Assembly (NCBI RefSeq): GCF_038900055.1
Contig: NZ_JBBMQM010000001.1
Coordinates: 1,984,001 to 2,048,000, forward strand
DNA from: Henriciella sp. AS95
GTDB lineage: Bacteria > Pseudomonadota > Alphaproteobacteria > Caulobacterales > Hyphomonadaceae
Reading direction: 5' to 3'
DNA length: 64,000 nucleotides
The position numbers were made by a program, and so were the translations under genes. Shown one piece after another: positions 3,361-5,701 of this stretch. Below the pieces are notes generated by a model that had not been told where the DNA came from, did not search any database, and worked only from the letters and a program-made list of their open reading frames with translations. Each line of letters opens with the position of its first letter. Within the stretch, counting starts at the first letter, position 1.

Positions 3361-4003
3361 CGGGCATCCGAAAGATCAGGGGCAACGCCGTGGACTGATG
3401 CTGGTCATCTCTTCCCCGTCTGGGGCTGGCAAGACAACATTGGCCCGCAAGCTCATGGAAGAGTTTGCTGACATCAAATTGTCGGTATCGGCCACGACGC
3501 GCGAAGCACGTCCGGGCGAAACCGATGGCATCGACTACCATTTCAAGACACGTGACGATTTCCGCGAAATGATTTCCCGCCGGGAATTCCTCGAATGGGC
3601 ACTCGTCTTCGACAATCTTTACGGCACACCGCGCGCTGACACGGAACGTTTGCTGGAAACCGGCCATGACGTCCTTTTCGACGTGGACTGGCAGGGCGCC
3701 GATGCCCTGCATGATCAGATGCCCCGTGACGTGGTGTCCGTATTTGTGCTTCCGCCAAGCATTGAAGCGCTTAAGGCTCGGCTCGCCGCGCGGCCCGGCT
3801 CCACTGACGAAATCGTCGAACGCCGCATGCGTGACGCCAAGGCCGAGATGCGTCATTGGCGGCGCTATGACTATGCAATCGTGAATGATGATCTCGAAGT
3901 TGCCTATCAGCGCCTCAAACGCATCCTGCTCGTCGAACGGTTGAAGCGCCTGCGCCAGCTCAGCCTGGAAGACCATGTCCGGGAATTGATGGGCGAGGCC
4001 TGA
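3350..4003 (+). CDS. gmk: Guanylate kinase
   Basis: This 217-residue enzyme phosphorylates GMP to GDP. The P-loop SSPSGAGKTT spans residues 21-30, and the GMP-binding region includes SVSATTREARPGE and GIDYHF. The ATG at 3350 sits inside the last codons of yicC and is preceded by AAGGAG at 3334-3339; longer in-frame extensions upstream lie in yicC and have no ribosome site. The 11-bp overlap with yicC suggests co-transcription. Length and motifs are normal. Confidence 0.97.
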   Translation: MSNSGHPKDQGQRRGLMLVISSPSGAGKTTLARKLMEEFADIKLSVSATTREARPGETDGIDYHFKTRDDFREMISRREFLEWALVFDNLYGTPRADTERLLETGHDVLFDVDWQGADALHDQMPRDVVSVFVLPPSIEALKARLAARPGSTDEIVERRMRDAKAEMRHWRRYDYAIVNDDLEVAYQRLKRILLVERLKRLRQLSLEDHVRELMGEA

Positions 4004-4052
4004 CCTAGTTCGCTTCTCGAATGCGCCTTACTCATAAAGGAGGTGCATTCGC

Positions 4053-4874
4053 ATGACGGGTGAGGGCCAGTGCTTTTGCCGTTTCTGCGGCGCGCGAATT
4101 GGCCGTGACAGCGTCCGTGTGGTGCAGACTATCGTATCGATCAACGACGCTGGTGAGATAGATGGCGGGTTGCAACACCCGCCAGCCTGGCTGTCTGAAA
4201 CGACCCCCTGCTATACGGACAGAAAAGCGGCGTACGAGAAGCGAGATCAGGAAATCCGAAGCACTTATGCGGCGGCAGAAGTCAAAGGCATGCTTATCTC
4301 ATTCACAGTGGGCGGACATTTTCAGCGCATCTATATCGGCGAATGTGCCGTCTGCGGCCAGGAAGACCCGCTGAACAAGGTCGCTGGACTGCTCGCGTCC
4401 GGTTTTGAGCGAATCGATATGCCGGAGATTGACCGCTGCTCGCTAGGCGAAGAAGGCGAGCAGCGCCGCGCAAGAATTGCCGAAGCAGAACGCCAACGTC
4501 TCATCGACATGGGCATGTCCACGGTCTGTCCGTCCTGCAATGAGGTTAACCGGAAAAGAGCAACATGGTGCCGCAAGTGTGATTGTCTGCTTGCAGATAC
4601 CGACCCTGCTTCCTCCGCTCCCTTGAAAGAGCGTCAGTGCCATGACTGCCGGGCCATTCTAGGGTTTAACGAAGCCATGGCGCTGGAGTATCCCGGTTTG
4701 CTCAAGGCGTTGCCGGACTTCATCATGCCGGCGACAATTACCATGTCGGCTTTGGAAGGGAGCAAATATACCGGCACTCGCAAAGAGTCAGTGGCCATTA
4801 GGCCCTGTGATACGTGCGGCAGCAGAGATCCGCTGAGACTGGTGGAGCAATTGGAGAAGGATGGCTATCGCTGA
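4053..4874 (+). CDS. Unrecognised protein with five CxxC zinc-ribbon pairs and an internal duplication
   Basis: I do not recognise this 273-residue protein. It has five C-x2-C pairs: C9/C12, C98/C101, C159/C162 with C173/C176, C196/C199 and C252/C255. The pairs at 159-176 look like a classic zinc ribbon. The N-terminal part (9-121) and C-terminal part (196-272) resemble each other: each starts with C-x2-C followed by a short hydrophobic turn and ends with C-x2-C-G-x2-DPL-x3-(A/V)-x2-L-x3-G(F/Y). This suggests two copies of one zinc-binding module flanking a ribbon. There is no signal peptide or membrane segment. AAAGGAGG lies 9-16 bases before the ATG, a very strong ribosome site. The 3' end overlaps convergent rsmA by 10 bp. 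A nucleic-acid or protein-binding role is only a guess. Confidence 0.8.
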   Translation: MTGEGQCFCRFCGARIGRDSVRVVQTIVSINDAGEIDGGLQHPPAWLSETTPCYTDRKAAYEKRDQEIRSTYAAAEVKGMLISFTVGGHFQRIYIGECAVCGQEDPLNKVAGLLASGFERIDMPEIDRCSLGEEGEQRRARIAEAERQRLIDMGMSTVCPSCNEVNRKRATWCRKCDCLLADTDPASSAPLKERQCHDCRAILGFNEAMALEYPGLLKALPDFIMPATITMSALEGSKYTGTRKESVAIRPCDTCGSRDPLRLVEQLEKDGYR

Positions 4875-5701
4875 TCGGCCAGCGAACTGGCCAAGGCCCT
4901 GAACTCATCCTGCGTCAGCGTTTCGGCTCGAGCCGTCGGGTCGATTTCGCAGCTTTCCAGCCATTCGGTCGCATCGACGCCGCGGGATTTCGCCAAAGAT
5001 TTGAGGCTGGCCCGTAGCATCTTGCGGCGCTGACCGAAGGCGGCGGTCGTCACTTTTTCGAGCGTTTCCAGATCGGCAAAGCGCTGATCCGGTTGGAGCG
5101 GCGTCAGCACTGCGACGGCGCTGTCGACCCTGGGCGGCGGCCGAAAGGCGCCGGGGGGCAGGGTGAAGGCTATATGCGCGTCACACACCGCATGTGCCAG
5201 CACAGCGAGACGTCCGTAGTGCGGCGTATTCGGACCAGCCACAATGCGTTCAGCAACCTCCTTCTGAAACATCAGCGCCATCTCACCGCGCCAGTCATCT
5301 GTCTTGAGCCACTCCACCAGCAACGGCGTGCCGACATTGTAGGGCAGATTGGCGATTATCATGGCGGGCATGTCTCCGCCTGACTCCTCAATGAGTGATC
5401 GCCAGTGAACCTTCCGGGCATCCGCCTGGCGCACTGTGAGCTGTCCTGACTTGCTCTCCGGCCAATCGGCTAGTGCTGACGCGAAGCGTTCGTCTGCCTC
5501 GACGGCGATGAGTTTTTTGACCCCTTCTTTCAGCAAGGCTCGCGTCAGCCCGCCGGGTCCGGGGCCAACTTCGATCACCGTGCGGTCTTCCACCGGCCCT
5601 GCGGCTAGCGCTGTACGGCGCAATATATCCGGGTCGAACAGAAAATGCTGTCCAAGGGCCTTTCGTGCGCGGCCCTCTGTCAGGTTCGGCTCGTCAGTCA
5701 T
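4865..5701 (-). CDS. rsmA: 16S rRNA (adenine1518-N6/adenine1519-N6)-dimethyltransferase
   Basis: This 278-residue SAM-dependent methyltransferase (KsgA) dimethylates two adjacent adenines in helix 45 of 16S rRNA during 30S assembly. The N-terminal KALGQHFL, the SAM-binding IEVGPGPGGLT (about 43-53) and the adenine-binding NLPY motif (118-121) are intact. The start overlaps the pdxA stop by 8 bp. It is the last gene of the lptD-surA-pdxA-rsmA string, an order shared with E. coli. Confidence 0.97.
   Translation of the reverse strand: MTDEPNLTEGRARKALGQHFLFDPDILRRTALAAGPVEDRTVIEVGPGPGGLTRALLKEGVKKLIAVEADERFASALADWPESKSGQLTVRQADARKVHWRSLIEESGGDMPAMIIANLPYNVGTPLLVEWLKTDDWRGEMALMFQKEVAERIVAGPNTPHYGRLAVLAHAVCDAHIAFTLPPGAFRPPPRVDSAVAVLTPLQPDQRFADLETLEKVTTAAFGQRRKMLRASLKSLAKSRGVDATEWLESCEIDPTARAETLTQDEFRALASSLADQR

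Follow-up and report, generated by a model that had tools for sequence, protein, structure and literature searches.

A putative zinc-type orphan protein with a partial internal repeat, encoded in the variable gmk-ksgA junction

Described zinc modules and the gene between gmk and ksgA

Among described zinc modules, those closest to the protein considered here are the classical C4 ribbons, such as DZR (PF12773) and Zn_ribbon_3 (PF13248), and the ribosomal protein eL40/L40e of archaea and eukaryotes, which has a similar four-cysteine knuckle spacing and a CRKC motif. In other modules, including the N-terminus of MqsA/YgiT, CpXC and the treble clefs, two CxxC knuckles flank a long, stranded insert. 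Here we describe a gene, X, whose predicted product would combine a segment of the first kind with two outer modules that may resemble the second. It lies in a 64,000-nucleotide stretch of Henriciella sp. AS95 (the window), on a 3.79 Mb contig of a 3.87 Mb genome rather than on a small replicon.

3395..4003, plus strand: gmk, left border of the variable spot
4036..4044, plus strand: ribosome-binding site of X, AAAGGAGGT, read from the sequence, 8 nt before the ATG
4053..4874, plus strand: gene X, orphan protein P0001 (273 aa, 30.2 kDa, pI 5.6)
4865..5701, minus strand: ksgA/rsmA, right border of the variable spot, convergent with X and overlapping it by 10 nt

A sequence-only reading of this DNA had given X as a 273-residue frame at 4053-4874 on the plus strand with a very strong ribosome site, and both points are borne out. 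It had also described X as standing alone beside rsmA, which does not hold: X lies on the same strand as gmk, starts 49 nt past its stop and runs into the 3' end of ksgA/rsmA. KsgA shows no visible damage, and its last residues differ among the five KsgA ends compared. By Pfam, the seven neighbours of X encode a ketoacyl synthase, YceG, YicC and guanylate kinase on one side, and RrnaAD, PdxA and SurA_N/rotamase on the other (the names fabF, mltG, gmk, ksgA and surA are our own assignments).

Is X a gene at all? Its codon-bias score in frame is 0.069, above those of the five other frames (-0.059, -0.059, 0.053, -0.012 and -0.023) and below those of gmk (0.198), ksgA (0.129) and pdxA (0.124), these scores being rough in that the codon-usage reference took in codons of a misframed lptD. 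The frame is thus coding-like, but more weakly so than its neighbours, and one reverse-strand frame across X comes close to it (0.053). GC content is 0.568, versus 0.588 for the window. A spurious frame or a decaying import would explain the lower codon bias and the lack of a homologue in any search, and sequence of this composition often has long open frames by chance (in 20 of 20 simulations of 64 kb, the longest run without a stop was at least 293). We regard a non-functional frame as very improbable, however, given the regular CxxC spacing, the internal repeat and the strong ribosome site, and given that the X stop falls at the end of ksgA. Because of the ribosome site, the exact fit between gmk and ksgA and an in-frame codon bias above that of the other frames, X is probably a genuine gene.

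Signals for its transcription are sparse. No sigma-70-type promoter site was found in 3850-5000, where the absence of a consensus match is weak evidence outside enterics, and since no promoter-like site precedes X, we would guess that expression proceeds by read-through from the gmk side. The single terminator-like site in the same interval lies on the minus strand inside X, and the number of such sites is about that in shuffled sequence. Neither RNA families nor tRNAs were found in the window.

Cysteine pairs, a common ribbon and a partial repeat

The cysteine pairs of X define five features:

4077..4088, plus strand: N-module knuckle 1, C9-x2-C12, with C7 also near (cysteine spacing)
4344..4406, plus strand: N-module repeat block, knuckle 2 and helix, CxxCGxxDPLxxVxxLxxxGF, residues 98-118 (repeat statistics, BLASTP)
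4527..4580, plus strand: middle four-cysteine zinc ribbon, C-x2-C-x10-C-x2-C, residues 159-176 (cysteine spacing, family and ORF matches)
4638..4649, plus strand: C-module knuckle 1, C196-x2-C199 (cysteine spacing)
4806..4868, plus strand: C-module repeat block, knuckle 2 and helix, CxxCGxxDPLxxVxxLxxxGY, residues 252-272 (repeat statistics, BLASTP)

The ribbon and the C-x2-C pairs at both ends are as originally described, whereas the count of ten cysteines in CxxC pairs was too low: there are 12, in six pairs starting at residues 9, 98, 159, 173, 196 and 252, out of 16 cysteines in all. Shuffles of the X residues have a mean of 0.87 such pairs and reached six in 2 of 20,000 cases, and two is the maximum among the remaining 77 ATG-started ORFs of at least 150 aa in the window. 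Pairing the knuckles in what we infer to be the natural way gives three predicted four-cysteine sites, 9/12 with 98/101, 159/162 with 173/176, and 196/199 with 252/255, with spacers of 85, 10 and 52 residues, respectively. X thus probably has three zinc sites.

A cysteine content this high (16 of 273 residues), together with the six CxxC pairs and the extra cysteine in C7-x-C9, could also point to a metal- or redox-responsive protein, either a zinc buffer or chaperone or a thiol switch. CxxCG spacing followed by a helix is typical of structural zinc, however, and none of the seven neighbours scanned against Pfam has a metal or redox function. We consider such a role improbable.

The middle ribbon appears ordinary. 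It has the same C-x2-C-x10-C-x2-C arrangement (C159, C162, C173, C176) as DZR and Zn_ribbon_3, and matches DZR at E 0.0029 with 18.2 bits, below the curated Pfam cut-off of 27.3. The likeness to L40e is similarly sub-threshold (NCBIfam E 0.0017, 17.9 bits against a cut-off of 54), and eL40 at the middle ribbon is the best match, at E 0.063, in a PDB sequence search with the whole protein that returned nothing credible. Another genome of the class contains a 104-residue ORF (L022, 1309-1620) that is hydrophobic in its N-terminal part and ends in a CPHC-x10-CRHC ribbon resembling the middle ribbon of X; this CPxC-x10-CRxC ribbon shares 46% identity with the X segment over 48 aa. The classical ribbons comprise one ribbon only, with nothing that matches the outer modules of X, and X differs from eL40 in being a 273-aa multi-module protein in a bacterial host.

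These likenesses raise the question of whether X binds nucleic acid. As a zinc-ribbon regulator associated with transcription or translation, it would place the middle ribbon on RNA or DNA, with the outer modules positioning it, and a ribbon that is basic (net +2 over 28 residues) and recalls eL40/L40e and DZR is consistent with this. The family matches are, however, far under their curated cut-offs and cover little beyond the four cysteines and their spacing, the protein as a whole is acidic, and no recognised regulator domain was found in it. A nucleic-acid role thus strikes us as somewhat unlikely.

For the outer modules the sequence-only reading had claimed two copies of one unrecognised zinc module. 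The repeat blocks share CxxCGxxDPLxxVxxLxxxG[FY] and are identical at 9 of 21 positions. The CxxCG-xx-DPL part of the motif given originally is common to both ends, but its continuation as DPL-x3-(A/V) misfits the C-terminal copy, and DPL-x2-V-x2-L-x3-G-[FY] is the corrected form. Leaving the cysteines aside, 7 of 19 positions are identical, with P 0.00014 per pair (for a random pair of the same composition) and ~0.002 over the 15 CxxC-anchored block pairs compared, no other of which exceeds 3 of 19. Self-alignment places the internal repeat above chance at this second-knuckle block. One of 5000 full shuffles, and 5 of 5000 with the cysteines fixed, attained the local score between the N- and C-terminal parts (51), and BLASTP of one module against the other aligns 11 of 33 identical residues at E 9e-5 for that single comparison. 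The alignment runs upstream over the strand before the second knuckle and stops short of the first knuckles, which are identical at 2 of 19 positions (blocks at 9 and 196) with a negative score; MAFFT sets C196/C199 opposite C7/C9 rather than C9/C12.

The repeat is thus real, though it covers only part of each module. What the ends share is the second knuckle with its preceding strand and following helix, and because the first knuckles have no measurable similarity, repetition can be demonstrated for no more than half of each module; a module present in two copies is likely as regards the second half but unproven as regards the first. Should the two ends instead be independent zinc modules that came to share CxxCG-xx-DPL by convergence, the unmatched first knuckles, the unequal spacers and the five Cys-fixed shuffles that reached the observed score would be accounted for. 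In-register identity at seven non-cysteine positions and the BLASTP match between the modules argue against this, and we judge it unlikely. Such convergence concerns the repeat only and would be compatible with the roles considered for X.

No family model matched the ends convincingly in four libraries. Pfam and NCBIfam models gave no match to either outer module at E 10, the best PHROGs match (E 0.066) is not credible, and none of the PADLOC anti-phage defence families matched X. The earlier interpretation is thus supported in part: a significant internal repeat surrounds a four-cysteine ribbon, and the ends lack a convincing family match. The middle ribbon is of a common type. For the outer modules, "unrecognised" means lacking a sequence match, as distinct from having a demonstrated new fold. 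A phycobiliprotein likeness of the module profile (E 0.0054) was set aside as chance; it is confined to the insert, away from both the CxxC pairs and the repeat block, and searching with the C-module by itself gave no match.

Structure prediction with zinc placement, proposed alongside the original description, foundered on low confidence: AlphaFold gave a pLDDT of 40.8 for the whole protein and 44.3 for the N-module, given together with the C-module as a second row, too low for metal sites. In both models, strands at 79-86 and 89-96 immediately precede the second N-module knuckle and a helix (107-110 or 106-115) follows it, which may be a hint, and a hint only, that the repeat block forms a hairpin, a knuckle and a helix. 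Foldseek found no PDB match for the whole-protein model (best E 0.67, probability 0.10), a result that is uninformative at such pLDDT.

An orphan in a junction that varies across the genus

The check for relatives suggested with the original description found none in family, order, class and phylum samples, plasmids, phages, viral contigs and two scans of the contigs of 84,980 species. Protein searches covered 101 genomes of relatives, 105 of the family, 398 of the order and 385 of the class, in samples that overlap and include the window's own genome, and only that genome gave a convincing match. A two-row module profile found no relative in 398 genomes of the phylum, its two matches in the own genome being there by construction. 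The search of 101 genomes returned 22 other matches (E 0.004-0.4), and of these, the ones that were read were not credible. Of its 19 weak non-self loci, six were read for frames containing at least two CxxC, which gave none for L003 and L013, and the other 13 (E 0.018 to 0.15) entered tblastn only. The class search gave three non-self loci, L021, L022 and L023. L022 was rejected as a plain ribbon only, and L003, which was read again, L021 and L023 because their alignments fall on unrelated genes or on frames that lack matching cysteine pairs.

A tblastn search of X against 50,697 phage records returned nothing, and 72,556 plasmids gave one chance match at E 8. Peptide-word scans of genome and viral contigs, a method that detects close relatives only, confirmed none. 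A degenerate DNA pattern for the repeat block recovered both copies in the window and had no hit in viral contigs. Among the contigs of 84,980 species it had 12, where ~15 are expected by chance on a rough hand estimate; all 12 frames were read, and none has the arrangement of X. The best-looking (L090) is a 41-residue frame lying across a long ORF of another frame.

We compared the junction in 28 genomes of the genus, the window's included (G024 was left out, as gmk was not found there, and genomes outside the genus were not counted), assigning contents by tblastn to one representative each, itself identified by Pfam. Half of them (14 of 28) carry an aldose 1-epimerase-like gene (galM), and five an FBPase-like gene, joined in G004 by a metallo-beta-lactamase-fold gene. 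The junction is empty in six (G005, G010, G018, G019, G020 and G022), with 9-36 bases between the matched ends, and holds other DNA in two, G009 (2.6 kb) and G012 (339 bases). X occupies it in one, and is absent from the other 104 family genomes. The gmk-ksgA junction (window 4004-4864; L024-L052) is thus a variable spot in the genus. In G012 (L034), the 339 bases before the ksgA match hold a short ORF of ~77 codons starting ATGAAACTCACC and unrelated to X by tblastn. The 2.6 kb upstream of ksgA in G009 (L036) include a 471-codon open frame that, by eye, looks like the end of an outer-membrane receptor.

Since the junction varies in the genus and is empty in the genome closest by KsgA (G022, 87% identity), X was most simply gained on the branch to its own genome, in a position that different genes have repeatedly occupied across the genus.

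A tentative role and its significance

So, what might X do? We tentatively favour a recently gained, strain- or species-restricted gene whose soluble product acts as an adaptor with three zincs. Zinc binding, the pairing of the sites, duplication of the whole modules, the adaptor role and expression are all proposed parts of this reading. The lack of a strongly hydrophobic stretch (the largest 19-residue hydropathy mean is 1.23) suggests a cytosolic protein, and because of its net charge of -4 and pI of 5.6 we prefer an adaptor over a bulk nucleic-acid binder. The three four-cysteine sites would build the protein, the outer two as zinc ribbon-like or treble clef-like modules. In each of these, two zinc knuckles would bind a single metal, with an insert containing a beta hairpin between them and a D-P-L helix capping the second, and an internal duplication would have generated at least their second-knuckle-and-helix half. 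A structural role for the zinc seems most likely, as does one for the outer modules as paired binding surfaces, in the manner of an adaptor or scaffold, for a protein partner. Against this count the missing homologue, the unlike first knuckles, the 85- versus 52-residue spacers and the low pLDDT of both models. Even so, we place an adaptor ahead of nucleic-acid binding, which in turn ranks above a metal or redox role and, last, a non-functional frame. It is possible, though on balance doubtful, that the outer modules represent a zinc domain not described before, made up of a knuckle, a long variable insert, a beta hairpin, CxxCG and a D-P-L-capped helix, duplicated around an ordinary ribbon and carried as single-gene cargo at a recurrent gmk-ksgA insertion spot.

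X is best viewed as an orphan, apparently zinc-type protein that is internally duplicated in part; it is mildly interesting and not a system. For now, the gene is one of the many orphans typical of most bacterial genomes, and its general importance is modest. Provided that X is expressed and its product binds three zincs, it would represent a new arrangement of zinc modules, one for which the collections searched contain no known relative, and it would then be worthwhile to search the gmk-ksgA junction for unexplained single-gene cargo.
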